64,000 bases of DNA, taken from contig SCTZ01000023.1 of NCBI GenBank assembly GCA_004297765.1, positions 42,072 through 106,071 on the forward strand, written 5' to 3'. The translations under genes and the position numbers were made by a program. The stretch is from Chloroflexota bacterium (GTDB taxonomy: Bacteria; Chloroflexota; Dehalococcoidia; FW602-bin16). Below, piece after piece: positions 6,614-45,530 of the stretch; positions within the stretch are counted from its first letter, which is position 1; each line of letters begins with the position of its first letter. Below the pieces are notes generated by a model. The model did not search any database. It had not been told where the DNA came from and saw only the letters and a program-made list of their open reading frames with translations.

Positions 6614-6689
6614 ATAACGTATATCCCCCACTCATTAGATGTTCCACCACCCCACGCCAGCTGCAGACAAACAGATTATCCTACTGCTA

Positions 6690-15700: not shown

Positions 15701-18700
15701 GGAAGTCAGTGAAAGCCGCTCCCCCCCAGTAGTCCAGGTTATTCACGCGCCGCGCCCACAGATCTACCCACTCGTTGGGCGCGTAGCCGCTTCCCTCGAC
15801 GAACAACTGAGGAGTCTGGCCGTTGTTGTAAGACCACTGCAGCGGGTTGACGCTGACCTGGGACGCGCTGAACTGTCGCTGCAGATCCGACCCCGAGCTC
15901 TCGCCCACAGCGTGGACGACGTACGTTCCCACCGGTGCGGTGGCCAGCGTGCTGAACGTCGCGTGGACGTAGCCAGAACTGTTGGCCGTCGCCGCGAACG
16001 GTGTGAAGAGGTCACCGGGTGTGGCCGTAAAGGTGATCGTCTCGCTCGGCGCCATGCCCCATACGTCCGCCGTGAGGGTTGCGGCCTGTCCGGCCACCGC
16101 GGAGGCGGGCGTGAGATCGAAACGCTGCAGCCCGTAGTAGGTGGTTGCGGAGAGTTCGCTCGACACGCCGGTCAAGGTGACAGACTGTCGACCCGCGTAG
16201 CCGGCACTGGAGTAGGTCACGAAGCGCTCGAGCGAGACCTGCCCGCCGGCGTCGGCCGTGGTCCGGCTGCGATCGAAGATTCCGCTCGTCACGTCCACCG
16301 ACTCGCCCGGATTAAAGCCAGCGCCGATGATAACCAGCCGCTGGGGCACGTTAATGGACCCAAAGGCCGGCGAGACCGCGGCCGTGGGGCCGCCCACCGG
16401 CTGGATGCTCAGGCGGACCTCCAGCGACTGCGGAGAAGCGTCAGCGCCCGGCGCGCTCAAAGTCACGGTTCCGGTGTAGACGCCTACCGTCAATCCGGTT
16501 GGGTTGATCCGAGCGTAGTAGTAGCCGCAGGACCCAGCGTTGAGACCGCTGCCGCTATCGGCGCTCAGCCAGCTTCCGCCGGAGCCGGTGGAGGACGACG
16601 ACGTGAAGCTCAACGTTCCGCCGCCCTTGTTGCACACGCGGAATGATTGTGACTGCAAGCTTGTGCTGCCTACGGTGGCCACGAAGGCGGGCGAGCTAGG
16701 ATCGACGTTCAAGATCGGATTGCCCGGCGCGGCCAACAGGACATCCATACTGGCACTGAAGCTGCTGGCGACATCGGTCGCCACTACCTGGTACATGCCA
16801 GCGGGGGACAGGGTATTCAGCGTCACCGGGAAGTCCAGGGCCCCGGTGTCATCGGTGGCCGAGATGGCCGGGTCGAACAGTCCAGCAGGATTCGAGCTCA
16901 GCGTAACCGTCACGCGCGGCCGGAACCCGCGCAGGGAGAAGGTCGGCGTGGCTGTCTGTCCGGCGATGAGCTGACCGGGAGCAGGACCGGACACCTGGGA
17001 CACGTACAGCGTCGCGTAGCTGGTGATGCCGCTGACGGTGCCGTACGCGCGCAGCTTGTGGATGAGAGCCGTCGAGGCCGTCGGCTGGAACGAGGTGGAG
17101 TAGACGCCATTGGCATCAGCCACCGTGCCGAACCCCTCGGGGAAGACGCAGCTGGAACAGGAATCGTCGTACAACCGCACCAATTCGCCCGGCTGGAAAC
17201 CCTGCTCGGTGATCGTCAGAAGCGGTGATTCACCCGCCCGGTACTGGTTAGGGCTGATAAGCAACGCGCCTACCATGAAAAGGAAGCTCGCGCTAGATCC
17301 GCTGGTTTGTCCTATGGCAGTGATGGTGTAGTCGCCGGCCGCGGCGTTGGTGATCTGCACGCTCGGGCTGGTGTTGCCGGCGCTATCGGCGACTGGCGAG
17401 ATCGGGGCAAACAGCCCGGCTGGGCTGGATTGGAAGGTGACGCTCTCCCCCGGCAGGAAGCCAGCCCCGTTCAACACGACACCGCCCGTGAAACCGATCT
17501 GAACGCCCGGCGGGTTGCTCCAAGCGTCGATTTGCGCATAGGTCGCGTAGGCGTCGATGCCACTGACGCGACCGCGGGCGTACGGTGTCCAGCGCTGGGC
17601 ATAATTCGTCGTGCTCTGGACAGTGGTAGTGATGGCGCCGCTGTTGTCGGCCTGCATTGTGAAGTAGTCGTACGGACCGCTGCCGAAGTCCACGAGCTCG
17701 CCCGGGGCGAACCCACGAGCGCTTAGCGTCAGAATAGGATAGCTTCCCGCCGGAGCCACGCTCGGCGTGATGGAAAAGCCGGTCGTGCCCTCGACATTGA
17801 GCACGGCCTGCGCCTGGCGTCCACTTTGGCTGCCCGTTGCCGTGAGCGTGTGCACGCCGTTCGGCGTGGTAGGCCGCGATCGGAAGTAAGTATTGCTGAA
17901 GTTGCCCGCGCTGTTGGCGTTGAGTGTGAAGTCGTCGATGCCGTCCGATGGCGTAACCTGGACGTCTATCTGCTCGTAGGGCAAAAAGCCGCCGCCCGAT
18001 AGGTAGTTGTAATCACCGCCGCTACTCATGTAGCTCCAATGCAATGACACACCGACCAGGTTGAGAGGAGCAGTGGTGAACGCGCCGCTGGCATTATCCG
18101 TAGCTTTCACGGAATACGAGCTAGCGGTGGTGAGATAGACTGGCTCCTGTGCGCTGATGGTGCCGGAGCCGCTAGCCGTAACTACGAACGTGCCAAAAGG
18201 ACCATTGCTGATGGTGACGTCGCCGCCCGGCGTGAAGCCGTACCCGGCAATGGTCAACACGGGATGCTCGCCGGCCTGGATCGTCACCGGCGTGATGCTG
18301 AGCTGCATCATATGGAAGGGTACGCTCATCTGCATGCCACTGCTCTGGCCGGTTACCCTCACGGTGTAGACGCCGGCCGGCGCGCCCAGGTTAGTGGGCA
18401 GCGACCAGTTCCAGATGTTGCCGCCGCTGTCGGCGACCCCCACCGTATCGGAGATGAGCCCTGACGGCGTGACACTAACGCTCACCGCCTCATAGGGCTG
18501 CCAGGCGCGCACGTGAAATGTGAGCGGGCTCCCGCTGCCGGCCGTGACTCCTGCCGTCAACAACTGCAGCCAGGTCAGATTGAACGGAGCGTAGTAGTCA
18601 ACGCTACTGGAGTTGCCATGGGCCCGAATATTCCAGGCGTTGGAATCCCAATTTGGCAAGACCTGCTGCGTGGCCATGAAGGCGCCCGTGTCATCGGCCG

Positions 18701-21700
18701 TGACAGTGAAGTTACTGAACGGGCCGCTCGAGATGGACACCTGCTCGTTGGGCGCGTAGCCAGCGCCCGCCAGTGTCAGCATGGGCGTCGTGCCGTGTAG
18801 CGCCTGGCGCGGGCTGACCGTGAGACCGGTCTGCCCCTGGCTCACCACCATTGCGACGGCCACCGGCGCCGGGTTGCCCCCTGTGCCGCCCGATGGGCTG
18901 ATAGTGACCGTGCCGCCGTAAGTGGAAGCATCCAGCTTGAACGGAGTCAGGGTAATCGTCAAGACCTGGCTGGCGCCAACGTCGAGGGTGCCCGAGGTCG
19001 GGCTGACCGACATCCAGCTACCACCATCGTTGGTCGCTTTGCTGGCGGTCCAGGTAACCGGCGCCACACCGCTGTTGGTAAAGGTGATCGCCTGGGTGAT
19101 GGCCGGCGAGGTGTTGGTCGTGTTCACGGAAAGGTCGTCCGGAACGACGCTCACGAATGGCGTGGCCGTCCCGCTGCCGATCGAGAACGGTGCGCTGGCC
19201 GTGTACCCATCGGACCCCGCGGCCACGATAGTGTAGCTGCTCGTCGGCGCGGACGGATCGGTATTGACGTCCACCGACCAAGCGCCGTCGGTGCCCACCA
19301 GCACCGTACGTGGGTCGAACAGACCGGCCGGTCCGGCGCTGACAGTGACCAGATCACCGGACGCATAGCCAGCGCCCGTGATAGTAAGGTTGTTGGCAAT
19401 GGAAGCCAGCCCACTGCTGGGAGAAACCGTCACTCCGGTCAGATTGAATGGCGTATACTTGTCCGTTCCATCGTCATAGCTGTAGGCCCGCAGGTTGTAA
19501 CGTCCGGCGGCCTTGCTGGGATCGATGGTCAACGTCTGAGTGAACAACCCGTTGGCGTCTACGGTCGTCGGATTATCTGCCCACGGTCCATTCCAGAAAT
19601 GCACAGTGCCACCAGGCTTGTAGCCCGAGCCAGTGAGTGTTACTCCGCCCGGCGTTCCGCGCGTCACGTGGCTGGGCGATGCACTGAACGACCCGATCGC
19701 GAAGCCGGTCGAGGCACTGTAGCCGGTGCGCGTGCCGGTCAGAGTGATCGTATAGGAGCCCTTGGCCGCGGTAGGATCGATGCTCCCAACCAGGCCCACG
19801 TTACCATTGGGATCCGTCTTCGCCGGTAGAGTGGAGGAGAACAGTCCGGCTGGCTGCACACTCAGGCTCACCGGCTCGTTTTCGCCGAAGCCGGCGCCGT
19901 ACACGAACAGGTTGCCATTATAGCCCGTGGTGACCTGCCCCGTGCTCAGCGAGACGCCGGTCAAGTAGAACGTCGCGCGTCCCATCGCGCCGCTATCGCC
20001 CGTGGCCATGACTACGTAGCGGCCGGCCGTGTTAGTGTAGATATCCTGCGTCGTGGAGATGACGCCCGAGGCATTGGCTGGAATCCAGAAGTCGTTCCAG
20101 GGGCCATCGGTGAGATGGACCCGCTCGTTGGGCGCGTAGCCATTGCCCTGCATCTGGACGGCCGGGCGCTGTCCCGCGACAGCCTGCACCGGAGAAACGC
20201 TGAACGATCCAACGTGGTAGTTCAGGGTAGTGGCAAAGCCGCTATTCACCCCGCGCACGGTCAGGATGTAGCCGCCGGCCGGTGCGGAGGCAAGAGTGGT
20301 GATAGCGTACTGGAAGTTGCCGCTCCCGTTAGCATAAAACGAGACTGGGGCAAACAAGCTCGGGTCATTCGATGAGACCTGAATGGTCTCGTTCTCCATA
20401 TAGCCATTGCCGTTCACGTTGAAGGTGTTGGCCTGACCCAACGTGCCATTAACGCTATCGAGCCAGCTACTGACCTGATAATAGGGGACGGTGCTGATCG
20501 CGCCACGATCGTCCCAGACCTGGACGTCGAAGCGCTGAGCACTGCCGTTCGTGGCACGGCGAGTTACGGTCAGCACGCCGCTCGCGTCCACCGCGCGGTC
20601 GAAGTTCTCGAACGGGGCAGTTGTTCCGGTATTGCGCCCAATGTGCACGGTGTCATTGGCAGCGTAGCCCGACGACTGAATCAACAGTGGGGTCGATCCA
20701 CCTGCAACTTGCCAAGAGGGCGTGACGGACAGGGTACCGACGTGTAGATCGATAGCGCCACTGTAGCCGCTGGAGGCGCCCGTGGCCACCACGTGGTAGA
20801 AGCCGGCCGGAGCGTTGATAGTCAGGTTCACCGAGAAATTGCCGTTGACATCCGTTGACACTGGCGGCGCACTGAACAGTCCAGACGGGCTGGCGGCCAG
20901 GTTAATGACCTCGCCTTGATGAAAACCGCTGCCGGACAGCACCACCGAGCTCGGCATGTTGGCCGGCACGAGAGCCACGTTGAAACCGATACCGGTTTGG
21001 AAGAACGAAGCGGTATTCTGCACGCCGCTGCTGTTGCCCTTGGCGTTGGCCACGTACCAGCCGTTGCCAGCATCCGGCGGCAAGGTCACGGTTGCAGTGA
21101 ACACGCCGGCACCATCCGCTGCCAGCGTGGTGTCGACCAGCTTGCTATATGGCCAGTAGGGCAAGGACATCCAGAGATGTACCTGCTCACTGGGCTGATA
21201 TCCAGACGCGCTTGCCACTAGCTGTATTCCAGGCTGAGCTGTCTGAGCGGGCGTCACGCTCAGGATGCTCAGATTGAAGGTCGTCTGGGCCGTGTAGCCA
21301 CTGGCGCCCGTCGCGACGATTAGGTACTGCCCGGTGGGCGCTGAGGCGGGGATGGTGCCCGCGAAGTTGAAAGCCCCGTTGGCATCGGCCGTGGCCGTCG
21401 CAGCGGGAAACAGACCGGACGGGGACGAGCTGAGGGAGACCGTCTCTCCGCCAATGTACCCTACGCCGGAGACGCGCAGGACCGTGCTCTGCTGCGCACG
21501 CGCACCCGTGGGATTGGCGGTGATGGCGGTGAGTGAGAAGAGAGCAGTGGACTGCAGCCCCGAGCTGCGCCCCTTGATGGTCACGGTGTATTGGCCAGCG
21601 TTGTACGTGCTGACCTGCACATCGCGGGAGAGGTTGCCCGTGGCGTCGGTCTTGTCCACGATGCTTGCCCATGGACCGCCCGTGATGTCCACAGTCTCGT

Positions 21701-24700
21701 TCGGGCCAAAGCCTGTGGCGGTGAGCGTCACCGTGGGATAGCTGCCCGCCGCGACATGGTTGGGCGACAGCGCCAGTGTCGTCGCGCCCTGGATGCCCAG
21801 TGTGACAGTCAAGCTCTGCGGACTGTTGATCGGGGTCACCAAACCGGAGCAGACCGCTCCGTTTTCGGCGTTGCACAAGCCCTCGACCTCGACAGAGGAA
21901 AGCGCATGATCGTAGACCCGTACTTCGTCCATCTGTCCGTTGAAATATCGCCCCCCACCACCCCAGCGAGACAGCCGCAGAAACTGCGTGCCATCGTAGT
22001 TGATGGGCGAGCCAACCGCACCAGTGCCGACGAGGGCCCCATTGAGGTACACTCTGTTGACATTATTCGAGTCCCGCGTCAGGACCAGGTGTTGCCACAC
22101 ACCCGGAGTCAGCGTGAAGTTTACACCCGAGCCGGCCGCACCCCAGTTGAAGAGGCTACCGCTATTCTGGTACTGAGCTACGAAACTCCGATAGTCTGTA
22201 TGGTTGTTGTCGATGATGTCGGCCCAGGTGATCTGAGATGCTCCGGGCTTGATCCACATCGAGAAGCTGAACGTTTGCAGGTTGAACCAGCTCCCCAGAT
22301 CGACGTAGCCACTGCTGCCATCGAAGCTGAAAGCCTGGCCAGCCTTGCCCGGAACGAAGCTGACTCCACCCTGCGTTGTGCCTGGATGACTGCCCACTGC
22401 GTCACTAGCGTCGCCATCGGCCGGCCAGTAGTCAAGCAGCCCGATCGGCAAACCGGTCGCGCCGGTTCCCTGACCACTGACCGTGACCGTTCCGGTGTAA
22501 ATGCCGGAGGATAGCCCGGTTGGGTTGACGCTGAGCGAGAAGGAGCCACTACCATTGGGGCTGATCGTCCCGGTGCTGGGGTTCAGGCTGAGCCAGGCGC
22601 CACCACTGACGGTCGTTGTGATAGCCTGCCAGTTCAGATTGGCGCCGCCGCCCTGATTATCCAGCGCCACGTTGACCGATTGTGTTTGGGTCGACCCCGC
22701 ATTGGCGTTGAAGAGACGCGGCGTGGTGTCCACGTGTAGCACTGGGTTGCCGGCCGCGGACGGCTCGATGGTGAACGTAGCGCTGGCCGAGAAGCCGTTG
22801 CCCGTGTCCTGAGCCAGAACCGTGTAGGTGCCGACGGGAGCCGTGGCGAGCAGCGTGGCGCTCACGTCGGCGTTCCCACTGGAATTCAGAGTGACGTCCT
22901 TCTCCGTGAACAGTCCCGGCGGCGAGCTGGACAAGTGCACAGAGCCCGACTGAGCGAAGGCACGCACGTAGAATGTCACCGCCGAAGTCGAGCCGGCGAC
23001 CGCACGAGAAAGATTAGCGGATAGGCTCAACGGATGAATCTGCTGATCCTGCTGAATGCCACTCACGCGACCTTTCGCGTGCACCCAAGTCCAACCGTTA
23101 TTCCATCCGTTTCCGCTGGTACTGCGAGTGGCACTGAAGGCGCCGTTGCTATCCGCCGTGACCGAGAAGTCGGCGAACACGTTTCCATGCTGATCGTTCC
23201 ATAGGTCGATCGGCTCGTTGGGAGTAAAGCCTGCGCCGCTGAACGTGACGCTCGATGGGCTCCCCGCGGGCACGGCATTCGGGCTGAGAGCGAAGCTGCC
23301 GACATAATACAACGCCGTCCCGACGTACCCACTGGTCTGCCCAGTGGCGATGATCTGGTAGTCACCGCCCGCTACGGCGGCGATGGGAGCCGTATATGTG
23401 AAATTGCCATAACTGTTCACGGTGACAGTGGCGGTCGGGAAAAGCCCCGCCGGATTCGAGGACAACTGGACAGTCTCGCCAGCCCAGAAGCCATAGCCCT
23501 CGAAATACTGGGACTTGGCGGTGTTCGCCTTGGCCAGGTTGCCCCAGCCAAGGTTCAGCCCAGTGAGGTAGACCGACACGCTGTTGTCGACCCCACTCGA
23601 ACGCCCATTAGCACGAATAGTCTGCCTACCCGCACCCCCATTGCTCTGCAGCGTGGCCGTAATGACTCCACTGCCATCCGCTTGGAGCGTGAGGTCCAGG
23701 GCGTTGCCACTGCTAAAGCCATTGCTGTAGAACGGATCCCAGTAGTAGTTCGAATTGGTCACGTCGACATACTCGCCGGGAGCGAAACCCATTCCCGACA
23801 GAGTGAACTGCTGGCCGACGGCAGGTGCGGCGACCTGCTGGGGCGTCGCGCCCAGACCGGTTCCGGTGACACTCAGTTGGTCAGTTGACGTCCAGCCGCT
23901 GGTCAATCCAGTGGCCGTGAAGGTGTATTGCCCGGCCGGTACGCCGTTGATGGCCGAGTAGTATGCCGGTGTGGCGCCGACGCTATTGGCCGTGACGTCG
24001 AAGTGATCCGACCCGCTAAACTGGAAATAGCCGGGAGGCGAAACGGTGAACCGAACCACCTCGTTCGGCTGGAAACCTGCCGCGTAGTAGTACTGGCTAT
24101 TGGTCGACCCGCGCGGGTTGTAGGCGAACCAATTCCCCGTTAGGTAGAGCGGCACCCGTACGCGACCGCCAGTAGCTCCATCGGAGACGTAGATAAGATA
24201 GCGTCCCGCGGTGTTAGAGACGATGGGCTCTTGAATCGAGATCTCACCCGCAACGTCGGCTTTGACTACCGCCTTACCAAAGGGCCCACCGTAAACCGAG
24301 ATGTCGGCTCCAGGCGTGAGGCCCGAGGCGCTCACGGTCACGACCGGATGCTGTCCGGCCCGAAATTGCCCAGGAGAAACCTGAGCACTGATGACGTTGA
24401 ACGGCTGACTCGTTACGAAGCCGCTGGTGCCGCCGGTGGCGACGACCTTGTACACGCCGGCTGATGCGGCCGCGTTGGTATTCACATTCGAGACGTAGAA
24501 ATATCCGTTCGTGTCGGCAGTCTTGTTCACGTTGGCGAACAGACCGGGAGGATCCGAGCTGATCACGACCGCCTCGCCGCGGCCGAAGCCCCAGCCCTGG
24601 AAATTCAAGCTCGCGCTGGAACCCGCCGCAACAGCCGGGTTGCCCGAATCGGAGTTGTTGTAGAGTTCAAAGCGGGTAAGGAAGACGTCGGAGGAGTAGG

Positions 24701-25046
24701 TGGTGTTGCTGGTGAGACCCTGGGCTTTGATGTTGTAGACCCCGTAGCGCCCCGAGGGACTATCTGATTGGCGCGTTGTGGTAAACGCACCCGAGCTGTC
24801 AGCATCGACCTGGAAATCGCTGAAGGGACCACCGGTGATCTTGATGGGCTCGCCCGGCGCATAACCGGAACCACTCATTACCAGAGTGGGTTGACTACTG
24901 TAAACCGCCTGCACCGGCGTGACGACGAAGCCAACCTGGCCCGCCTGCGCGGGTGCGGCGGTCGTCGCCGAGGTGATCGTGGCCGCGAGAGCCACCATCA
25001 TGATGGTTACTACAAGGACTGTCGCGCGAAGTCCCCTCCAGCTCAT
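6747..25046 (-). CDS. Giant secreted protein (6099 aa) with Ig-like repeats, LamG, BACON and CARDB domains
   Basis: One uninterrupted frame. The ATG at 25046 has GGAGG five bases upstream and starts a signal peptide (ends near AAPAQAG). About residues 36-3400 hold 16 tandem pairs of Ig-like repeats. Type A has GxGYxPGE and GGPFxDF motifs; type B has GExVxLSSxPxGLF and a VVATGxSSGY end. They are broken by BACON domains near 763-1084, 1962-2070 and 2775-2885. A LamG/concanavalin-like domain (about 864-1065) sits inside the first BACON. Four BACON domains follow (about 3427-3870), then a core shared with the neighbouring giant (3873-5030), an IPT domain, a short unique segment and seven CARDB domains (about 5267-6099). 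No catalytic motif or anchor is visible. Giant adhesins are built this way, so surface binding is the likely role, but the ligand is unknown. It lies between the two other CARDB proteins. Confidence 0.88.
21850..22455 (-). other. LamG/concanavalin-like domain nested in a BACON domain
   Basis: Residues about 864-1065 of the giant protein carry LamG_3 hallmarks ([48 protein letters not shown]). The flanks are one BACON domain cut before its last strand: GTVTVSGQG lies before the insert and [12 protein letters not shown] after it. An intact BACON in the same protein reads [21 protein letters not shown]. LamG folds usually bind glycans, so this is a plausible carbohydrate-binding module. Confidence 0.75.
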
Positions 25047-25198: not shown

Positions 25199-28100
25199 CT
25201 ACGGTTGCAAGGTGATCGGGACCACCGCCGTGTTGTTCGTCTCGTCGCTCTCGGTCACCGCGTTGAACATGTCCGTGCGCATGATCAGGAAGTAGCTCCC
25301 GACGGCGACGTTCGGCAGCCTTACGTCGGCCGTCACGGTATAGCTATCGTCAGCTATCACGGCAACGGCGCGCGTGACCAGGGTCACGTACGTATCCCCG
25401 CTGTCCCAGATGCCATTCGTCGACAGGTAGACCCGATCTTGCCAGGACGGAGAAGCATCGCTATCCCCCTGGTTCCTCACCGTCCACGTGATGGGCACCG
25501 TCTGCCCCGGACTGGCCGTGCTCGGCGCGGCTAAGGCCGTCGGGGTCAGGTCCGGCGCCTGGACGGCCTGGAGGGTGATGGGCACCGCCCGCACATTGTT
25601 CGTCTCGTCCTGCTCTTTCACCGCGTTGTACACGTCCGTCCGCAGGAGTAGATAGTAGCTCCCCGTCAGGTTGGGCAGGGTCACGCTCCGCGTCACGCTA
25701 TAGCTGCTGCCTACCGCCAGCGTCACCCCCTGCGTCGCGTTGACCAGGAAGGTATCGCCGCTATCATACGTGCCATCCGTCGACAGGTAGACCCGATCCT
25801 GCCACGACGGCGCAGCGTCCCCGTTCCCCTGGTTCTTTACCGTCCACGTCACGCTGATGGCCTGCCCCGGCTCCGCCGTGCCTGGCCCCATCAGCGCCGT
25901 CGGCACCAGCTCCGGCCTGGCGTACAGAGTGAGCGGCACCACCAGCGCATTGTTATTCTCGTCCAGCTCCTTGACCGCGTTGTACATGTCCGTTCGGAAG
26001 ATCAGGAAGTAGCTGCCCGCCGCCGTTTTGGGCAGCACCACGTTCTGTGACACCGTGTAGCCGCTGCCGGAGGTGACCGTCAGGCTCTGCGTGGTGCTGG
26101 TCAGGTAGTAGTCGTTGCCGACGCCATCCATCGACAGATACACTCGATCCTGCCAGGAGGGAGCAGCATCGCCGTTCCCCTGGTTCCTGACCGTCCAACT
26201 GATCGGCACCGTCTGCCCCGGCATGGCCGTGCTCGGCGTACTCTGGCTGGTAACATCCAGATCCGGCTTGGTGACCAGGATCAGGGGCACGACCGCGCTG
26301 TTGTTGTTCTCGTTCAGCTCCTTGACCACGTTGAAGTGATCCGTGCGGAAGATCAGGAAGTAGCTACCCGCCGCAAGCTTCGGCAGGACCGCACTCTGCG
26401 TCAGCGTGTAGCTGCCGCCGGCCGTCAGCGTTACGCTCTGGGTGACGGTCGCCAGGAAAGCGTCCCCGCCGTCCCACCTGGTGTCCGTGGAGAGGTAGAC
26501 CCGATCCTGCCAGCTCGGGACGGCATCCGTGTTGCCCTGGTTAGTGACGGTCCAGGTCAGCGGCACCGTCTGCCCCGGCATAGCCGTGCTCGGCCCGCTG
26601 AAGGCGGTGGGCGCCAGGTCCGGGGTCTGCACCAGGATCGGTCTCGGCCGCGTGTTGTTGGTCTCGTCTGATTCCTTGACCGCGTTGTACATGTCGGTCT
26701 TGACGATCAGGTAGTAGCTCCCAGTCACCTTCGGTACCGTCACGCTCTGGGTTACGCTGTAGCTGCCGCCCACCGTGAGCGTCAGACCCCGGGTGACGCT
26801 GGCCAGGAACGTATCCCCGCTATCCCAGATGTCGTCCGTCGAGAGGAAGATCCGATCCTGCCAGAACGGCGCGGCGTCCGCCGTCCCCTGATTCGCGGCC
26901 GTCCACGAAACGTTGAGCGCCTGCCCCGCCGAACCGGTATCCGGAGCTGTGACATCAGCCACCGTCAGATCCGGCCGTGGCAGGACGGTTATCTGGAAGC
27001 TGCCCGCGGCCGTGTTGCCCGCCGTATCCGTCGCCGAGCAGCTCACCAGGGTCGTCCCCACGGGGAAGGTCGAGCCGGAGGGCGGATCGCACGCGAAGGC
27101 GGACACACCGGAGAGAGTGTCGATCGCGCTGGCGCTGTAGCTGACGAGCGCGCCCGCGGTGGTATTGGCCAGTACCGTCATATCGGCCGGCAGTGAGAGC
27201 ACCGGCGCCGTCGTATCGATCATGATGGTGACCGAGCCCGTGGTGCTCAGATCGGCCGCGTTGAGGGCCGAACAACTCACCACGGTGCCGGCGGTGTCGG
27301 TCGAGAGCGTCACCGTATCGCAGCTAGAGGAAGACACGATCCCCGATTCGGGATCGGCGACAGTCCAGGCGATGGATACGGAGCTGGTGTACCAGCCGCT
27401 GCTGCCGAGCGTGCCCGTGACGATGGGCGTGACGACGGGAGGCGTGCTATCGAGCGGCAAACCCACCTCAAGCGTCGCGGTAACTGTTGCCCCGATCATG
27501 CTGTTCATGGCGGTGAACGTGCCCGTCCCGAGGGTGACCGTCAGCGGAATGGTAACGCTCGTGGAGAATTGCCCATCGCCCCAACGATTCTCGGTCCAGA
27601 CGACCGGGTAGAGCGTCTTCGCCCCGTCGTGATCGGTGAAGCTGAGCAGGACAGAGGTGTCCATGGGAGGCCAGCCGATTTCATCGGGAGCGGGCCAGCC
27701 CGTGCCAGTGAGCGTCAGCGAGGCGCCACGCACCCCCGTCGGGGAAGACGGCGTTACCGTCGGCCGCTGCACATGGGCGCTGAAGCCGAAGCGACGGCTG
27801 TATTTAGGCACGAAATATAGCCCGCTGTCGCCGAGTGTCCCGCTTTCTACGGTATCAAACCGACCTTCGGTCGACGACGCTCTGCTGGGATCCGATGGAT
27901 TGGTGCTGGCATCCATAACAAAGGAGAAGCTCGTCCCATCGGCAGGCGCGTAACCCGGGGCCAGCACCGGCTCCAACGTCCCTGCGAGCGTCCCACCGCT
28001 CCACGCCCAGAGAATACCGTAGTTTGTGCCGCTCAAGACGTGTGACTGCAGAGCGCCGGCGGATGTCGGATAATACGATCCGACCTCGAGGCGCGAGCCT

Positions 28101-31100
28101 GTGTCCGCAAAAACGGTCCCGCTGTTGATGAGATTGGACGTTATGTAGCGATACCCACCGACGGCGGTCAGGGTCCGGATAGTGCCCGTGTTCGTCAGGA
28201 ACCCATCCGCGGTGCCGAACATGATGCCGTAGGGACAACTGTCGCCGTTGGTCAGCACGATAACTCCGGCGTTGTTATAGCTTGCTGGCGCTCCCACGAT
28301 GGCGTCGTACCTGGTACAGCTACTCTCGAGCCTCAAGGTCTGGCCCGGGAAGTTCTGCCCCTGCAGCGTGCTTGCCCCACGCAGCGCAAGCGTGCTCTCG
28401 CCGGACCCGGTGTAATTGAGGGTCAGGTCCTGCAGGATCACGGGCCGCACACCGGACGTGGTGCCGGCACCCTGGGCAAAGCTGCCTCCGGTCTGAAATA
28501 GGTAGCCGTTTCCAAGCGAACCCGACGCGACGATCGATCCGTCCGCGTCGTTGGTAATCGACGGAGCGTTCGGCGCCGTCAGGGCGACCCCATCGGCCAT
28601 CGAGATCGTGCCCTGGTTGAGAAGCGTGTTGGCCCCCAGGTAGCTCGTGTTCGCGTTGACCAGAACGTTGCCGGTATTGGTCAGGTTGCCCTGGAAGGTC
28701 GTGGCCGCGTCGAACCGGAGGATACCGGTATTGATGATATTGGCCACCAGCTTCCGCGCCCCGCCGGCCCCCGGCAGGGTCCGGATGGTGCCAGTGTTGG
28801 TCAGCGTCCCGGACGACAGGGTGAGGTAGGCGCTGTAATCGTACGCATCGCCGTTGGTCAGCACGATGGTTCCCGCGTTGGTGAAGCTCGCGACGGCCGT
28901 TACGTCGGCAGTGAGGTTGTACCCCCCACCCAGGTAGAGGCTCTCGAGGACCAGGGTCTGATCTGCGGTCAGGTTGCCGCTGAGCGTGCTGGCTCCACGC
29001 AGGGCGATGCTGCTCGCCCCGCCGCCAGTATAGCTGAGAGCAACGGCTCGCAGAATGACGGGCTTAGTGCCGGGAATGGTGCCGTCCCCCTGGGTGAACG
29101 CACCGCCGGTCTGATTCAACTGCCCCGTCCCGGTGGGAGAAGTAGCCCCCGTCGATCCGCCCGCGTTGACGAACGAGGCGCCGCCCGAGAGGCTCAGCAC
29201 GATCCCGTCCGCGATGGCCACCGCGCCGCTGTTCGTGAGCGTCGTGCCCGCCAGGTTGTAACTGGTGTTAGCGTCGATCAGCAGGCTGCCATTGTTGATC
29301 ACGCTGCCCTGGATGACCCGCCCACCACCCACGCCCGGCAGGGTCTGCAGGACGCCGCTGTTCGTCAACATGCCGGATGAAGCGACCAATGTGACGCTGT
29401 AGCCGTAGCTATCGCCGTCGGTTAACACGATGGTCCCCGCGTTCGTGAAACCGGCGTCCACCGTCACGTTGCTGCTAAGGCCATAAGCGCTCTCGATCCG
29501 TAGCGTCTGGCCGGCGGCCGTGGCTCCACTCAACGTGCTCGTGCCGCGCAGGGCGATGCTGCTCGCCCCGCTCCCGGTATAGCGCAGAGCCCCGTTGACC
29601 ACATAGACCGGCTTCGTTCCGACGGTGGTGCCATCCCCCTGCGTGAACGTTCCGGCGGTCTGGTACAGGTAACCGCTGCCTGTCGACGTGGTGGCGCCCA
29701 CCACCCCGCCCGCGTTGGTGAGCGACGCCCCACCCGCGATACTCAGGTTGACCCCGTCCGCGATGGCGACCGTCCCGCTATTCAGGAGCGCCGTGCCAGC
29801 CTTGTTATAGCTCGTATTCGCGTTGATCAGCAGGCTGCCGCTATTGGTCAGGTTGCCCTGGAGGGTCGTGAGCGCGTCGAGCTGAAGGGTGCCGCTATTC
29901 GCGAGATCGCCCTGGATGACCCGCGCCCCGCCGGCGGCCGGCACGGTCTGGATGGTGCCGATGTTGGTTAGCACTCCCGACGAGACGACCAGCGTCACGC
30001 CGTAGCCGTTGCCATCGCCGTTGGTCAGCACAATGGTGCCCCTGTTGGTGAAACCCACGGCCGCCGTAATTTCCGTGTTCAGGTTATAGACGCTCTCGAT
30101 CCTCAGCGTCTGGCCAGTGGCCATGGATCCGCTCAGCGTGCTCGTGCCGCGCAGGGCAATCTTGCTCGCCCCGCTCCCGGTGTAGCGCAAAGCCCCGTTG
30201 GCCAGGTAGATGGGGTTGGTGCCAGTCGTGGTACCGTCTCCCTGCGTGAGGGTACCACCGCTCTGGTACAGGTAGCCGGTGCCTGTCGACGTCGTGGCGC
30301 CGACCACCCCGCCCGCGTTGGTGAGCGAAGCGCCACTGGCCAGACTGAGGTAGAACCCGTCCGCGATGGCGATCGTCCCGCTGTTGAGAAGCGTCATGCC
30401 AGCCAGGCTAAAACTCGTGTTCGTGTTGACCAGCAGGCTACCACTGTTGGTCAGATTGCTCTGGAGATACCGCCCACCGCCATTGGCCCGCTCAATCCGG
30501 AGCGTGCCCGTGTTGGTCATGGTCCCGGACGAAACGATGAGACCGATAGTGTTGCCGCAGCTATCGCCGTCGGTCAACGTGATGGTCCCCGCGTTGGTGA
30601 AGCTCGCTCCAGCCGTCACGGTGGCGTTGATGCTGCAGAGACTCTCGATGCTCAACGTCTGTCCGGCAGCAATACTGCCGGTCAGCGTGCTGGTTTGACG
30701 GAGCGTGATGTTGCTCGCCCCGCTCCCGGTGTAGCTGAGGGTCGCGTTGTCCACGTAGACGGGCTTCGTCCCGGTGGTCGTGCCCTCGCCCTGCGTAAAC
30801 GTGCCGCCCGCCTCGTATATCAGGCCACTGCCGCCTGCGCTGGTGGCACCGACCGACCCGCCTGCGTTGGTGAACGAGGCGCCCCCGAGGACAAGCAAGC
30901 CCATCCCGTCGGCAATCGCCACCGTGCCGCCGTTCTGGAACAGCTTGCCGTTCCAGTCAAAGTTGGTCGTCTGGTTGACGATGAAACTGCCGTTGTTGGT
31001 CACGCTCCCCCTGAGGTAGCGTCCGCCTCCATGCGCCAACTCGCTCCGGATCGTGCCGGTGTTGGTCATCGTCCCGGACGAGACGGTGAACATGATGGTG

Positions 31101-32113
31101 CAACCGCAGCTATCGCCGTTGGTGAACACTATCGTGCCGGCGTTCGTAAAGCTCGACGCCGCGGTCACACTGGCGGTAGCCGTGCTGATGCTCTCGATGC
31201 TCAACGTCTGTCCGGCAGCAATATTGCCGGTCAGCGTGCTCGTTTGACGCAGCGTGATGCTACTCGCCCCGCTCCCCGTGTAGCTGAGGGTCGCGTTGTC
31301 CACGTAGACGGGCTTTGCTCCGGTGGTCGTGCCCTCGCCCTGTGTGAACGTGCCACCTATCTGGTAGACGTAGCCGCTGCCGGTCGGTGTCGTCGCACCG
31401 ATCACGCCGCCCGCATTGGTGAACGAGGCGCCATTCTGCATGTTCAGCCCGACCCCATCCCCGACTGTCACCGTGCCAAAGTTCTGCAGGACCGTACCAT
31501 TCCCGTTGAAGTTAGTGAACTGATCGATCAGTAGAGCGCCGCTGTTGGTCAAATTCCCCTGGAGGAAGCGCGTTCCTCCGGCCCCCGCACTGCTCAGGAT
31601 GGTTCCCGCGTTGTTGACTGGACCCGCCAGCCACGCGTTGTTGCCAGCGCCGTCGCTATTGGTCAGTTCTACCTCGCCCTGGCTGCCGACCGACATTCCG
31701 CCCGTGGTCGTCAGGTACGCGTGTGCGGCTCCCGTGCTGCCGATCTTGAGGCGCTGTGTGCCCGTCGCTCCGCCAATGGTGAGTGATTTCACCGTAACCG
31801 CCGCGCCGTAGGCCGTCACGGTGTACGTGCCGTCCTGGATGATACACACGTCGTCGGACGTCCCGGGCACCAGCCCGGTGCTCCAGTTCGAGCCGGTGAG
31901 CCACGAGCCCCCCGACGCGTTAATCCAGGAGGTGGTGCAGACCACGGTGTCCCCGTCCGTTGCGCCACTCGAGCGCCCCTGCGCTTTGGACACGCTCGCA
32001 CTCGCCTCGGCCGTCGACGAGGCCAGCAGTATGGTGGCGGCGAGGACCAGCACGAGCATGGACAGCCAGCCGACTACCGGGACGAGTTTCCTCAGACGCG
32101 CGGTAGGTGTCAT
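25199..32113 (-). CDS. Secreted beta-helix repeat protein with HYR and five CARDB domains
   Basis: About 2304 residues. The ATG at 32113 is preferred over an in-frame upstream ATG at 32176. It follows GAGAGAGGAG and begins MTPTARLRKL plus a hydrophobic signal segment, whereas the longer form has unlikely extra residues. Residues about 60-1420 hold six imperfect repeats of roughly 200 residues rich in LTNSGTI, YTGSGASSI and TLSG motifs, typical of right-handed beta-helix or autotransporter-passenger-like proteins. A cysteine-bearing Ig-like segment (about 1545-1625) and an HYR domain (about 1626-1708, motif CDPPSGSTFPVGTT) follow, then five CARDB domains to the end. No beta-barrel or anchor is present. 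It is first of three tandem CARDB giants and sits behind the leader RNA at 32177-32279. An adhesin or extracellular matrix role is inferred. Confidence 0.85.
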   Translation of the reverse strand: MTPTARLRKLVPVVGWLSMLVLVLAATILLASSTAEASASVSKAQGRSSGATDGDTVVCTTSWINASGGSWLTGSNWSTGLVPGTSDDVCIIQDGTYTVTAYGAAVTVKSLTIGGATGTQRLKIGSTGAAHAYLTTTGGMSVGSQGEVELTNSDGAGNNAWLAGPVNNAGTILSSAGAGGTRFLQGNLTNSGALLIDQFTNFNGNGTVLQNFGTVTVGDGVGLNMQNGASFTNAGGVIGATTPTGSGYVYQIGGTFTQGEGTTTGAKPVYVDNATLSYTGSGASSITLRQTSTLTGNIAAGQTLSIESISTATASVTAASSFTNAGTIVFTNGDSCGCTIMFTVSSGTMTNTGTIRSELAHGGGRYLRGSVTNNGSFIVNQTTNFDWNGKLFQNGGTVAIADGMGLLVLGGASFTNAGGSVGATSAGGSGLIYEAGGTFTQGEGTTTGTKPVYVDNATLSYTGSGASNITLRQTSTLTGSIAAGQTLSIESLCSINATVTAGASFTNAGTITLTDGDSCGNTIGLIVSSGTMTNTGTLRIERANGGGRYLQSNLTNSGSLLVNTNTSFSLAGMTLLNSGTIAIADGFYLSLASGASLTNAGGVVGATTSTGTGYLYQSGGTLTQGDGTTTGTNPIYLANGALRYTGSGASKIALRGTSTLSGSMATGQTLRIESVYNLNTEITAAVGFTNRGTIVLTNGDGNGYGVTLVVSSGVLTNIGTIQTVPAAGGARVIQGDLANSGTLQLDALTTLQGNLTNSGSLLINANTSYNKAGTALLNSGTVAIADGVNLSIAGGASLTNAGGVVGATTSTGSGYLYQTAGTFTQGDGTTVGTKPVYVVNGALRYTGSGASSIALRGTSTLSGATAAGQTLRIESAYGLSSNVTVDAGFTNAGTIVLTDGDSYGYSVTLVASSGMLTNSGVLQTLPGVGGGRVIQGSVINNGSLLIDANTSYNLAGTTLTNSGAVAIADGIVLSLSGGASFVNAGGSTGATSPTGTGQLNQTGGAFTQGDGTIPGTKPVILRAVALSYTGGGASSIALRGASTLSGNLTADQTLVLESLYLGGGYNLTADVTAVASFTNAGTIVLTNGDAYDYSAYLTLSSGTLTNTGTIRTLPGAGGARKLVANIINTGILRFDAATTFQGNLTNTGNVLVNANTSYLGANTLLNQGTISMADGVALTAPNAPSITNDADGSIVASGSLGNGYLFQTGGSFAQGAGTTSGVRPVILQDLTLNYTGSGESTLALRGASTLQGQNFPGQTLRLESSCTRYDAIVGAPASYNNAGVIVLTNGDSCPYGIMFGTADGFLTNTGTIRTLTAVGGYRYITSNLINSGTVFADTGSRLEVGSYYPTSAGALQSHVLSGTNYGILWAWSGGTLAGTLEPVLAPGYAPADGTSFSFVMDASTNPSDPSRASSTEGRFDTVESGTLGDSGLYFVPKYSRRFGFSAHVQRPTVTPSSPTGVRGASLTLTGTGWPAPDEIGWPPMDTSVLLSFTDHDGAKTLYPVVWTENRWGDGQFSTSVTIPLTVTLGTGTFTAMNSMIGATVTATLEVGLPLDSTPPVVTPIVTGTLGSSGWYTSSVSIAWTVADPESGIVSSSSCDTVTLSTDTAGTVVSCSALNAADLSTTGSVTIMIDTTAPVLSLPADMTVLANTTAGALVSYSASAIDTLSGVSAFACDPPSGSTFPVGTTLVSCSATDTAGNTAAGSFQITVLPRPDLTVADVTAPDTGSAGQALNVSWTAANQGTADAAPFWQDRIFLSTDDIWDSGDTFLASVTRGLTLTVGGSYSVTQSVTVPKVTGSYYLIVKTDMYNAVKESDETNNTRPRPILVQTPDLAPTAFSGPSTAMPGQTVPLTWTVTNQGNTDAVPSWQDRVYLSTDTRWDGGDAFLATVTQSVTLTAGGSYTLTQSAVLPKLAAGSYFLIFRTDHFNVVKELNENNNSAVVPLILVTKPDLDVTSQSTPSTAMPGQTVPISWTVRNQGNGDAAPSWQDRVYLSMDGVGNDYYLTSTTQSLTVTSGSGYTVSQNVVLPKTAAGSYFLIFRTDMYNAVKELDENNNALVVPLTLYARPELVPTALMGPGTAEPGQAISVTWTVKNQGNGDAAPSWQDRVYLSTDGTYDSGDTFLVNATQGVTLAVGSSYSVTRSVTLPNLTGSYYLLLRTDVYNAVKEQDETNNVRAVPITLQAVQAPDLTPTALAAPSTASPGQTVPITWTVRNQGDSDASPSWQDRVYLSTNGIWDSGDTYVTLVTRAVAVIADDSYTVTADVRLPNVAVGSYFLIMRTDMFNAVTESDETNNTAVVPITLQP

Positions 32114-32176: not shown

Positions 32177-32279
32177 ACAAAAACCGACCCATACCTAACT
32201 AGTAGGGTCGGTTTCACCAGTAGCTCCCCCAAGGCCGAGGCGACCAGATTACGGGCCTGGGATCAGCGCTTCCCCTTTG
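32177..32279 (-). ncRNA. Structured leader element, copy 1 (candidate cis-regulatory RNA)
   Basis: On the minus strand, between the promoter and the 2304-residue gene, lies a conserved block. It has AAAGGGG, then TGATCCCAGGC, a stem partner (CCTTGGG), GGGGGA, GGTGAAACCGACCC, and a terminator hairpin (AAACCGACCC 32181-32190 / GGGTCGGTTT 32205-32214) followed by TTTTTG. A second copy at 45385-45478 keeps the same motifs with compensatory changes in the CCCAGGC stem. Copy 1 pairs CCCA/TGGG and GGC/GCC around a bulge; copy 2 pairs CCCAGGC with GTCTGGG. The layout is that of an attenuator or riboswitch. The family was not recognised. Confidence 0.65.
32181..32214 (-). terminator. Intrinsic terminator inside leader copy 1
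   Basis: A perfect 10-bp stem with a 14-nt loop ends in GGTTTTTG on the minus strand, about 65 bases before the start codon of the 2304-residue gene. A terminator between a promoter and its own gene implies conditional read-through. Confidence 0.75.
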
Positions 32280-32303
32280 TGATTGTGCCAGCAGAACAAG
32301 AAC

Positions 32304-32332
32304 ATATTAGGAAGCCAGGCTGTTACTGTCAA
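32304..32332 (-). promoter_or_regulatory. Sigma70-type promoter for the giant-protein cluster
   Basis: TTGACA at 32327-32332 and TAATAT at 32304-32309, separated by exactly 17 bases, read on the minus strand. The predicted transcript starts near 32297 and runs through the structured leader into the 2304-residue gene. Confidence 0.7.
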
Positions 32333-42305: not shown

Positions 42306-42334
42306 ATTATATGCCGCCAGAAGTGCACTGTCAA
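42306..42334 (-). promoter_or_regulatory. Consensus sigma70 promoter
   Basis: TTGACA (42329-42334) and TATAAT (42306-42311), both exact consensus and 17 bases apart, read on the minus strand. This gives an untranslated leader of about 88 bases for the gene starting at 42211. The leader lacks the terminator hairpin seen at 32.2 and 45.4 kb. Confidence 0.8.
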
Positions 42335-42678
42335 CAGGTTGATAGTAAGCTCGCATGCGGTAAGGACCGCCGCGACAACGCGACTACAATAACTCTGACA
42401 GAACTCTGACAGACATTGACGGGACGGGTTATCTCACGTAGTGGCGGACGGAAAGCTGATCAAGCACAGTGCGAACTGCGCTAGAGGGTGTCTGAAAAGG
42501 CGGACCTCGCATCCCCACCCCCAGGGCACATACAATGTGCCCCTACGGGAGGCGCGCTGTAGGGGCACATTGCATGTGCCCTGGGGCAGGGACGGGGGAC
42601 ATCGGCACTATGGCTTCTCAGACACCCTCTAGTGATCGCGTACGAGTATGGGCCCTATCCCACCCCTTCCAAAGGAGG
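42335..42678. other. Intergenic region with MITE
   Basis: Non-coding. The middle is the MITE-like element at 42481-42632. The remainder lies 5' of the promoter and 3' of the beta-propeller protein stop. No other feature was seen. Confidence 0.5.
42481..42632. mobile_element. MITE-like element, 152 bp
   Basis: Terminal inverted repeats of about 20 bp match except at one base: CTAGAGGGTGTCTGAAAAG at the left and the complement of CTAGAGGGTGTCTGAGAAG at the right. TA or CTAG flanks could be the target duplication. The inside is another palindrome (GGCACATACAATGTGCCCCTAC facing its inverted copy) of the GTAGGGGC repeat family. There is no coding capacity, so any transposase is supplied in trans. 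The TIR resembles ends seen in some IS630/IS5-type elements, but that assignment is tentative. Confidence 0.7.
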
Positions 42679-45210
42679 CTACCGTGAGGCGCCGGACACC
42701 TTGCGTAGCTGGTCCGTCGCGCCCTCAACCCAGGGCTGTGCCTGCGCGGCGCCGGCGCTCAACGGCAGTCCCACGTCGAAGAGCACGACCCCGACGTGCA
42801 TCTGACTCATGTTGCCTGGGTCCACCGCCGCCACTATGTAGGTGTAGCGCCCGTTCGGCACCAGGTTCCCCCCGCCATCTCTGCCATCCCAACTGTAGCC
42901 AACTGCCCCGGACGGGCTGAGTTGCCAGGGGAACATCTTGACCTGGATACCCTGCGGATTGAGGATCACGGCCGTGGTGAACCCGCCGCTCGGCAGAGAG
43001 AGGTTGAAGCCCAGGCTGGCATTGCCCGCCTGCGGATAATAGGGCTTCGGATTGACCGTCATGTTGGCGATGAGCGGGCTGATGCTCAGGAAGTCGTAGC
43101 CCACGGCCAGGGCATTACCTCCCGTATCCAGGCAGACGGCATAGTAGGCGTAGAGCCCCTCCCCCAGCGTGGTGCCCCCCGCGTTCTTGCCGTCCCACGC
43201 AACGCTCTGAGTGCCCGCTGACCGTGCACCCAGCGTCCAGTACTTCAGCACCCCGGCCCCATTCATATCGAAGATGGCGGCCAGGGTGTTGCCACAGGAG
43301 GCGGTGAGCTCGAAGCTCAGGATAGTCCCGGACTGCAGCGGGTTGAAGGGATTGAGTGAGGCGTGCACGTTACGAATGGCGACGGTCGCCGCTGGCGTCG
43401 AGGTGGCCGTCGGTGTGCTCGTGGCGGTGACTGTGGGCGGTATTGGTGTCGCGGTGCGTGTGCTGGTCGGCGTAGGGGTGGCCGTTGGTCCCGCCGGATT
43501 GTCTCTCAGCCGGCCGAACCACACGAAACGTGGCACGACGTTGGCGCACTGCGAGGTAGACGTGCTCGTGCATGGGCCCTGTTGGGTGAACGTCGTCGCT
43601 GCCCAGGTATTGCCAATCACACCAGCGCTCTCGTAGGAACGAACCGTCAAGTAGTCGCCCCAACGGTTGCGTCCGGGGCCGTTGGTGCCCGCTCGCGTGT
43701 AAGCAGCTTGCCAGGTGCCACCGCTGAGGTCGTCCGAGACGAATAGCCTGCTACTCGGATAATCGGAGGGACCGGCGAAGGCGACGCTCATGGCCAGATG
43801 CCCACGACCGTTCACCCCGATGCCCGGATAGGCGTAAGCATAGCTCGAGCTCCAGAGAATCGGCTCATCGATCAGAGCCTTACTCGATTCGTTGATACGG
43901 ACCACGTGGATGTAGGGGTAGGGAAAGCTTCCCAACCCCCCGGTGCCCTGGTTTGCCGTCCAAGCGAAGCCGATCACGCCCCCGGCAACCCAGCCCGCCT
44001 GAATCCTGGCATCGATGTAGCCACACATGTTCGTCCCATCCGGGCTAAAGCAATACCCCGTGCCAATCGGGTAAGACGAGTGTATTACATCCGAGTAGGT
44101 CACGCCCGTAGCGTCGGTGGCGCTTTCCGGCCATGAGTACAGCCTGAGGGTCGATGAATTGTAATGTCGGCCGAAGTACATCGGTGTAGTTGCTCCGGAC
44201 ACCGGAGCGAAGGTGAAGCCACCGTTGACAAAACCCGTGAACTGTAGCGGAGTCGTCCCGGCCGCCAATGCGTCCAGCGAAAAGCGCACAACAAGCGACC
44301 TGTAGAAATATCCGGAGCTGTCGAAGGTGTTTGTCGTCAGGTAGAGGTAATTGGAGCTGAGTGCCAGGTTTGGGAAATCGAGCTCGTATCCGGAGCCGAC
44401 TCCGGCGTTTACCGCGGTGATGTCCCAATACGTCCAGGTACCACTCGCTACCCCGGCCTGACCGTGGGCCACGGCGATCCTCTGGGCGTTGTTGTTGGAG
44501 GAATCCGCGCTGTACTGAAGGAGCCAGATGGTCAAATCGCGGCTTCGGTCGTAGATCGTCCTCTGGTCGCAGCAAAAACCGCCGTACACGGATGGCAGCT
44601 CAGTATAGGGATCGATGTGGCTAAAGCTGTTCCCGCCGTCGGTTGAGACGGCCGCGTACCAGTTGCCCGTGTAGAAGACGGTGTTTCCGTTCATCGACAC
44701 GCTGGGCTCATCTGTCGTCGACATGCTCCCGGGCGCGATCGAGGCCAGCGAAGTGTCTCGGAAGGTCGTCAGGTCAGAGCCTGCGTTGAGACCCTGCCCA
44801 GCGCGTGGCTCGTGACCCACCTCGGGTGCTCGAGTTCCGGCCGTGGCGGGCACATCGGGAAGGGATGGCCCGGGTTTGTGCGATCTAGCGGTCGCGGCTT
44901 CGAGCCTGGCTACGTCGCTATCAGAGAGGGATGGAAGCCCAGGACGCATCGAGAGCCGTGCCGTCTGCGCAGGGCCCAGTGTTCCCGCGATGGGAAGTAA
45001 ATCGTCGTCACGAGCCGTGGTCGGCGAGACGACCGGAGCGGAGGCAGCGATCCGGGACGAGCCCGCGGTGGTCTTACCGCCGATTGACGTCACCGACCCG
45101 GCATCCACCGCTAGCCCGGACTGCGACACCGCGAGCAGCACCGCGAGAGCCGCAAGAACTGCGGCCCGACACCACCTGGACCGAGCAAGCGCACGCACCA
45201 CGGTTGACAT
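42679..45210 (-). CDS. Secreted sialidase-like beta-propeller protein with FlgD-like Ig domains
   Basis: About 843 residues. The ATG at 45210 is preceded by GAGAGGAG; a TTG two codons upstream is less likely. A signal peptide spans about 1-35. Residues about 150-600 hold BNR/sialidase-like features: EPSVSMNGN, AVSTDGGNSFSH, and repeated short beta segments with SDDLSGG. These suggest a beta-propeller, but a full set of sialidase arginines and Asp-boxes was not confirmed, so activity is not claimed. A Thr/Pro linker (about 600-640) leads to two FlgD_ig-like domains paralogous to the protein at 41294-42211 and a similar C-terminal tail. Transcription starts at the promoter near 45.5 kb and passes the structured leader copy 2. 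Confidence 0.78.
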   Translation of the reverse strand: MSTVVRALARSRWCRAAVLAALAVLLAVSQSGLAVDAGSVTSIGGKTTAGSSRIAASAPVVSPTTARDDDLLPIAGTLGPAQTARLSMRPGLPSLSDSDVARLEAATARSHKPGPSLPDVPATAGTRAPEVGHEPRAGQGLNAGSDLTTFRDTSLASIAPGSMSTTDEPSVSMNGNTVFYTGNWYAAVSTDGGNSFSHIDPYTELPSVYGGFCCDQRTIYDRSRDLTIWLLQYSADSSNNNAQRIAVAHGQAGVASGTWTYWDITAVNAGVGSGYELDFPNLALSSNYLYLTTNTFDSSGYFYRSLVVRFSLDALAAGTTPLQFTGFVNGGFTFAPVSGATTPMYFGRHYNSSTLRLYSWPESATDATGVTYSDVIHSSYPIGTGYCFSPDGTNMCGYIDARIQAGWVAGGVIGFAWTANQGTGGLGSFPYPYIHVVRINESSKALIDEPILWSSSYAYAYPGIGVNGRGHLAMSVAFAGPSDYPSSRLFVSDDLSGGTWQAAYTRAGTNGPGRNRWGDYLTVRSYESAGVIGNTWAATTFTQQGPCTSTSTSQCANVVPRFVWFGRLRDNPAGPTATPTPTSTRTATPIPPTVTATSTPTATSTPAATVAIRNVHASLNPFNPLQSGTILSFELTASCGNTLAAIFDMNGAGVLKYWTLGARSAGTQSVAWDGKNAGGTTLGEGLYAYYAVCLDTGGNALAVGYDFLSISPLIANMTVNPKPYYPQAGNASLGFNLSLPSGGFTTAVILNPQGIQVKMFPWQLSPSGAVGYSWDGRDGGGNLVPNGRYTYIVAAVDPGNMSQMHVGVVLFDVGLPLSAGAAQAQPWVEGATDQLRKVSGASR

Positions 45211-45384: not shown

Positions 45385-45478
45385 TCAAAAACCGACCCGT
45401 CACCAGGGTCGGTTTCACCGGCCGTTCCCCCCAGACTGAGGTGACCACACAACGAGCCTGGGATCATTGCCCCTTTTT
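45385..45478 (-). ncRNA. Structured leader element, copy 2 (candidate cis-regulatory RNA)
   Basis: This copy has the same order of motifs as 32177-32279: AAAAGGGG, TGATCCCAGGC, CCTC, GTCTGGG, GGGGGAAC, CCGGTGAAACCGACCC, then a terminator hairpin with TTTTTG. The CCCAGGC/GTCTGGG stem pairs fully here. GAAACC may form a small GGT-GAA-ACC hairpin that competes with the terminator. Conserved loops with changed but paired stems argue for selection on RNA structure. The element precedes a different, non-homologous exported-protein gene. Confidence 0.65.
45389..45415 (-). terminator. Intrinsic terminator inside leader copy 2
   Basis: The stem AAACCGACCC / GGGTCGGTTT with a 7-nt loop is followed by TTTTTG on the minus strand, about 175 bases before the start codon. 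The stem sequence is identical to copy 1 but the loop differs in length and sequence. Confidence 0.75.
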
Positions 45479-45501
45479 CTATGTACCAGAAGAACAATGT
45501 T

Positions 45502-45530
45502 ATGGTAGCAAGAGCGGTAGCATGTGTCAA
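45502..45530 (-). promoter_or_regulatory. Sigma70-type promoter for the beta-propeller protein gene
   Basis: TTGACA (45525-45530) and TACCAT (45502-45507) are 17 bases apart on the minus strand, in the same position relative to the leader element as the promoter at 32304-32332. Confidence 0.65.

Follow-up and report, generated by a model that had tools for sequence, protein, structure and literature searches.

Promoter leaders of a Chloroflexota bacterium belong to the class II cyclic di-GMP riboswitches and are predicted ON switches for large, probably exported proteins

Two promoter leaders on the minus strand of the analysed stretch of Chloroflexota DNA (64,000 nucleotides, hereafter the window) belong, judging from their sequences, to the class II cyclic di-GMP (c-di-GMP-II) riboswitches and are ordinary members of a known RNA switch family. 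Their intrinsic terminators are built in part from the aptamer's own 3′ strand, and the leaders would very probably act as ON switches. In this arrangement, giant and probably exported proteins of a Chloroflexota lineage would be under a c-di-GMP-type switch.

Assignment of the leaders to the c-di-GMP-II clan

The repeated leader loci, their TTGACA promoters with 17-bp spacing and an intrinsic terminator ahead of each gene had been described in the initial annotation and were all recovered (Table 1); the conserved motifs listed there are present in both copies and can be aligned. That annotation took the element for a riboswitch or attenuator probably coregulating surface proteins, which stands, and for a new class of regulatory RNA, which does not. 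The claim of novelty was based on motif order, for which the c-di-GMP-I class was weighed and c-di-GMP-II was not named, and a confident Rfam match to a known class had been set as its refutation. Searching the whole window with cmscan (Rfam 15, gathering thresholds) returned two matches, one of which is copy A as RF03169 (c-di-GMP-II-GAG; 32282–32196, minus strand) with 59.5 bits at a cut-off of 40 (E 2.8e-9). This match rules out a new RNA class. Motifs that seem to fit no class are best compared with Rfam first.

Against RF01786, copy A scored 51.7 bits, 1.8 bits under the cut-off of 53.5. The curated covariance-model cut-off of the c-di-GMP-II clan (CL00127) is reached by copy A through RF03169. 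We place the element in this clan and set the GAG sub-label aside, since the label probably fits the binding pocket poorly. Copy B gave no match at the gathering thresholds in the scan of the whole window and does not reach the curated clan cut-off; its best score, from a separate scan of a 401-base stretch, was 24.7 bits to RF01786 (E 0.0047; cut-off 53.5). Copy B is a diverged relative that scores below the curated cut-offs.

Table 1. Positions of the leader elements and adjacent genes in the window
Feature	Position	Strand	Remarks
Copy A promoter, sigma-70-type, TTGACA-17-TAATAT	32304..32332	-	10/12 consensus matches
Copy A aptamer of c-di-GMP-II type (P1-P3 and P4 pseudoknot; pocket GGUGAAACCG)	32196..32282	-	RF03169 59.5 bits; RF01786 51.7 bits
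Copy A intrinsic terminator	32179..32215	-	5′ arm (32215-32205) within the aptamer; 3′ arm at 32190-32180; U tract ending at 32179
Copy A target gene, 2304-aa CARDB-repeat protein, probably exported	25199..32113	-	start codon ATG 32113
6099-aa giant protein, next co-directional gene 3′ of the copy A target	6747..25046	-	
2142-aa CARDB protein, third co-directional gene of the copy A series	203..6631	-	
Copy B promoter, TTGACA-17-TACCAT	45502..45530	-	10/12 consensus matches
Copy B diverged aptamer	45398..45481	-	P3 and P4 kept, 3 nt lost beside P2, P2 pairing broken in usual register
Copy B intrinsic terminator, in overlap with the 3′ strand of the aptamer	45387..45416	-	5′ arm 45416-45406
Copy B target gene, 843-aa FlgD_ig-domain protein, probably exported	42679..45210	-	

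Three features of the leaders were missing from the initial annotation, namely a 5-bp pseudoknot, about ten further copies in the genome, and the overlap of a terminator arm with the aptamer core. Some neighbouring elements of the window were also recorded. At the window edge (63919–63989, minus strand), the second Rfam match is to a group II intron (RF00029, 44.2 bits) and is unrelated to the leaders. A bacterial alpha-2-macroglobulin of 1451 aa with a TED domain is encoded at 48810–53165 (minus strand). Downstream of the copy B gene lies a MITE-like palindromic insert (42481–42632) with the terminal inverted repeats AGAGGGTGTCTGAGAAGCC ... CTTTTCAGACACCCTCT and the inner repeat GGGCACAT...ATGTGCCC, and a perfect TTGACA-17-TATAAT promoter (42306–42334, minus strand) precedes a gene for a 305-aa FlgD_ig protein; no Rfam riboswitch match was found there.

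Structure and covariation

The c-di-GMP-II structure was evaluated in an alignment (A2) of 34 aptamers, eight from the own genome and 26 from relatives of the same class. It omits L003, which is copy A itself, L008 because of its long insert, and both L027 and L033; L028, L032, and L035 are represented as L011, L017, and L019, and L021 contributes one extra aptamer. The structure pairs in 85.5% of the cells, compared to 67.1% with shuffled partners, and pairing falls to 34.4–48.9% when the structure is slid by one to three columns. Double changes were found in 196 cells (71.8 in shuffles), 21 of the 24 pairs change on both sides (15.8 in shuffles), and the number of pair types was reached by 12 of 500 shuffles.

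The best-paired helix is P4, the 5-bp pseudoknot (95.3% of cells; both-side changes in four of five pairs), followed by P3 (93.8%), each of whose eight pairs has a both-side change in at least one sequence, and P2 (89.2%), copy B's own P2 being broken. The stem that had been described as kept by different pairings in the two copies corresponds to P3. P1 is the weakest helix (69.9% of cells in the 34 aptamers, 60.4% in the second set of 62) and is short in the own-genome copies, mainly GGG/CCC. The minimum-energy fold of the whole copy A leader was no better than that of shuffled sequences (z 0.22), as computed with a program that cannot show pseudoknots.

The second set comprised 62 aptamers in 59 loci among 80 listed; 56 of these loci come from records titled Chloroflexi, Chloroflexota, or with a Dehalococcoid name, and two aptamers are common to the first set. 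The loci were picked by a pattern in the 3′ strand, for which reason P4 was left uncounted, and the aptamers were aligned to the model. The remaining helices paired in 79.8% of the cells (66.4% shuffled) with 212 double-change cells (92.7 shuffled); 14 of 500 shuffles attained the observed count of pairs with both-side changes.

Copies in the genome and distribution

The assembly to which the window belongs comprises 5.6 Mb in 256 contigs, with a completeness of 99.89 and a contamination of 8.95. It contains eight matches to RF03169, seven of them over the cut-off, and seven to RF01786, of which five exceed it. The covariance model built in the present analysis (R1) found 13 places. Nine of them are the RF03169 matches and copy B, eight of which were in the training set and match by construction. 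The new places are a tandem pair (C121:17483, E 2.5e-6, and C121:17739, E 0.007), a copy with promoter and terminator and a damaged pseudoknot strand (C224:60944, E 0.012), and the doubtful place C46:5024 (E 0.029, 21.9 bits), which lacks a terminator and, although included in the 13, is probably not a riboswitch. A stricter R1 setting gave ten matches. According to these searches, the genome appears to carry about 12 such leaders.

A near-consensus promoter with 17-base spacing lies 20–25 bases before the aptamer in 6 of the 12 copies and is absent at this distance in the other six. Promoters alone are weak evidence, since the promoter scan yielded five promoter-like sites compared to 3.0 ± 1.6 in shuffles. 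The own-genome aptamers share a mean identity of 74% with each other and of 56% with those of relatives; from the former value and the promoter common to half of the copies, the promoter–aptamer–terminator cassette has probably been duplicated in this genome. L001, L005, L007, and copy A also share, loosely, an A-rich stretch (about AAATAGTAAACAAATAG) approximately 30–45 bases upstream of the −35 box, which may be an UP element or a regulator site.

RF03169 matches were detected in 20 of 100 same-class relatives, in 18 over the cut-off. Among 301 genomes sampled from the phylum, the own genome included, 78 have an R1 match, with up to 14 per genome. A literature search by title found no study devoted to c-di-GMP-II in Chloroflexi; a riboswitch enrichment in Chloroflexota in general is described in PMC12452182.

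Terminator overlap and predicted switching

Both leaders end in a terminator with the arms ACCGACCC/GGGTCGGT and a U tract, upstream of ATG 32113 in copy A and of ATG 45210 in copy B, and the terminator stretches fold far better than shuffled sequences (z −4.46 and −4.10, respectively). As its 5′ arm, the terminator uses ACCGACCC, the 3′ strand of the aptamer itself. This overlap was found in 12 of the 13 own-genome places and 19 of 27 relatives, under a rule that anchors the stem on the aptamer 3′ strand and demands at least six pairs and a T-rich tail; under the same rule, it was absent in 8 of the 27 relatives. With the downstream letters shuffled, overlapping terminators averaged 1.06 in the 40 cases and never exceeded 4. 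The counted rows include the weak matches L027 and L033, which have no stem, and L005, which was scored on a wrong anchor and whose true stem was seen in an earlier scan. That scan detected terminators in 22 of 36 cases (shuffled mean 0.24), a first one in 25 of 36.

Because they have this strand in common, the ligand-bound aptamer and the terminator should be mutually exclusive, and the ligand should favor read-through. Bound c-di-GMP, the presumed ligand, would hold the ACCGACCC strand in the P4/P1 core, the terminator would remain unformed, and RNA polymerase would continue into the likely surface-protein gene. The leader would thereby work as an ON switch, by which very large, probably exported proteins are made when cyclic di-GMP is high. 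In Clostridioides difficile, class II switches act as ON switches of adhesins and pili according to a review and data (PMC11477304 and PMC3649979); in the latter paper, one figure legend says "negatively", whereas the text says positively.

The pattern GTGAAACCGACC-N3-22-GGTCGGTTTT was rejected as a marker of the switch. Of the 80 loci listed among 90, 59 had an R1 match and 21 had none; the latter (Clostridia, Pseudomonas, and others) carry a terminator- or repeat-like hairpin. In records of Bacillota, Clostridia, and Oscillospiraceae (L061, L067, L069, L083, L086, L088, L091, L092, L101, L103, L109, L110, L112, L123, L124, and L128), a hairpin of the form AAAACA (or AAAATA) GTGAAACCGACC...GGTCGGTTTT occurs, in some of them several times, without an R1 aptamer match. 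This hairpin, which resembles the terminator of the leaders, is possibly the end of a mobile element.

Binding pocket

The ligand-pocket residues of c-di-GMP-II, which we take to be A61, A69, A70, and G73 in a numbering (61–73) that presumably follows the published aptamer and crystal structure, are all kept in copy A (columns 73, 81, 82, and 85), whereas copy B has a G at position 61. A69-A70, as in ordinary c-di-GMP-II, is present in all eight aligned own-genome copies, and columns 81–82 read A-A in 32 of the 34 rows, the others being the relatives L016 (G-A) and L024 (C-A). The G at position 69, which we regard as the hallmark of the GAG variant from its name and the model consensus GGCGAGACCG, is absent, with A in its place in all eight copies; when copy A is aligned to RF03169, the conserved G (69) of GGCGAGACCG faces an A and the match line is blank. 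Columns 80 and 47 form a U-A pair in 24 rows and an A-U pair in three, and are unpaired in seven. As the RF01786 consensus letters there read as C facing G, we read the own-genome "GAA" as a changed P4 pair beside an otherwise ordinary pocket.

Position 62 deviates from the ordinary pocket. C62 occurs in seven of the eight aligned own-genome copies and, outside this genome, in 16 aptamers, 15 of which have GAG- or GCG-like pockets. In other genomes, 15 of the 17 aptamers that have G69 or C70 carry it, compared to 1 of 110 with A69-A70 (alignments A2 and A3, which overlap by two aptamers; duplicates removed). C62 accompanies the G-C form of the neighboring P4 pair in 23 of 23 cases, and this form was seen in 19–20 of 115 aptamers without C62. 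The 42 aptamers of 40 further loci of the phylum comprise the pockets AAA (17), AGA (8), CAA (8), and AAC (4) as well as the rarer AGC (2), CAC, GGC, and TAA (one each). The natural series CAA, AAA, AGA, and AAC/AGC offers material for testing the ligands of the GAG and GCG variants.

Alternative explanations

Another ligand has been proposed for the GAG and GCG variants, which were reportedly defined by Weinberg in 2017, and the own-genome aptamers might sense another cyclic dinucleotide or a related signal by an otherwise unchanged mechanism. The best-scoring model for copy A is indeed GAG, and the distribution of C62 points in the same direction, but C62 may be structural, being tied to the G-C form of the P4 pair next to it. 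Since A69 and A70 are kept throughout the aligned own-genome copies and five copies exceed the cut-off of plain c-di-GMP-II, we consider a different ligand quite improbable. cGAMP made by Hypr GGDEF enzymes was discarded as the ligand: the residue of the GGDEF motif that presumably sets nucleotide specificity, with Ser in cGAMP synthases, is D in 10 and N in one of the 11 domains read (of 12), and Ser in none. There is likewise little probability, in our estimate, that the hybrid pocket, with the C62 of GAG/GCG and the A69-A70 of ordinary c-di-GMP-II, is an evolutionary step that changes or broadens the signal in a switch controlling what may be a 32-kb operon for giant surface proteins.

A repeated unit that is a mere promoter and terminator on a mobile or duplicated element, without any sensing, would account for the 74% mean identity of the own-genome aptamers and the promoter shared by half of them, and similar GTGAAACCGACC...GGTCGG hairpins without an aptamer match exist in Clostridia and others. 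However, the cross-genome covariation of the helices and the occurrence of the aptamer in 78 of 301 genomes require selection on the RNA fold, which makes this explanation highly implausible. Loss of sensing in single copies is another matter. Copy B, in which part of the P2 region is lost, may respond poorly or not at all to the ligand, and the chances are about even that this copy, and perhaps weaker ones, are decayed aptamers whose terminator is now a fixed attenuator without ligand control. The missing three nucleotides and the P2 pairing gone from copy B argue for decay, as does the C224:60944 copy, which has lost its pseudoknot strand and yet keeps promoter and terminator; on the other hand, P3, the five P4 pairs, the pocket strand AACCG, and the terminator are retained in copy B, and its P2 strand is paired in a shifted register when the leader is folded.

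Regulated genes and c-di-GMP signaling

The proteins encoded downstream of the own-genome leaders are mostly large, and several have signal-like starts; their domains include CARDB, NHL or PD40 propellers, SdrD_B, PKD, beta-helix, and FlgD_ig. Most of the targets are large and probably exported. The initial view of the controlled genes as unrelated mostly applies at full length, but several share FlgD_ig or CARDB modules. Exceptions to the pattern are the Wzz protein after the tandem pair (C121:17483/C121:17739) and a DnaJ-domain protein. Tandem leaders upstream of a Wzz chain-length gene fit c-di-GMP biology. The leader of the DnaJ-domain protein gene (L008, G000:C126:49060-49168), outside the surface-protein pattern, has an insert of approximately 24 bases in the P3/P4 loop.

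In the copy A series, the three co-directional genes (2304, 6099, and 2142 aa) are separated by gaps of 152 and 115 bases. Consensus scans found no minus-strand promoter in either gap, and a single weak hairpin (25140–25125) was detected. A transcription unit of 32 kb from the copy A promoter, including the genes of the 6099-aa and 2142-aa proteins, is therefore possible.

For the second set of aptamers, a downstream ORF was obtained mechanically in 56 of 62 cases. A signal-peptide-like start, as defined by a rough rule of our own, was present in 33 of these 56 compared to 44 of 190 other ORFs of the same loci (Fisher p 1.1e-6); it was absent in 23 of the 56, partly as a result of the mechanical ORF choice. 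The Pfam families of the 56 ORFs are diverse, the commonest being DUF5658 (4 of 56).

Since the own genome contains three c-di-GMP-I aptamers over the cut-off and 12 GGDEF domains, c-di-GMP signaling is probably present. The three aptamers (G000:C120, C202, and C180) score best as RF03167 (c-di-GMP-I-GGC), and one of them precedes a subtilase gene.

Comparison with known riboswitches

The own leaders resemble RF01786 in their helices, the P4 pseudoknot, the GGA and AACCG core, and the residues A69, A70, and G73 of the assumed numbering. The predicted ON-type control of surface proteins is also similar to that described for C. difficile (PMC11477304 and PMC3649979). In contrast to RF01786, position 68 is an A facing mostly U instead of the C facing G of the Rfam consensus, C62 is present, P1 is short, the pocket strand itself serves as terminator arm, and the copy A score stays below the cut-off. 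RF03169 is the best model for copy A, and C62 together with the GC form of a P4 pair is shared with GAG-type relatives, but the conserved G of GGCGAGACCG is A in the own copies. RF03170 (c-di-GMP-II-GCG) belongs to the same clan, CL00127, and is the best model for 5 of 21 clan matches in 20 phylum relatives scanned; pocket residue 70 is C in the matches of these relatives, whereas it is A in the own genome.
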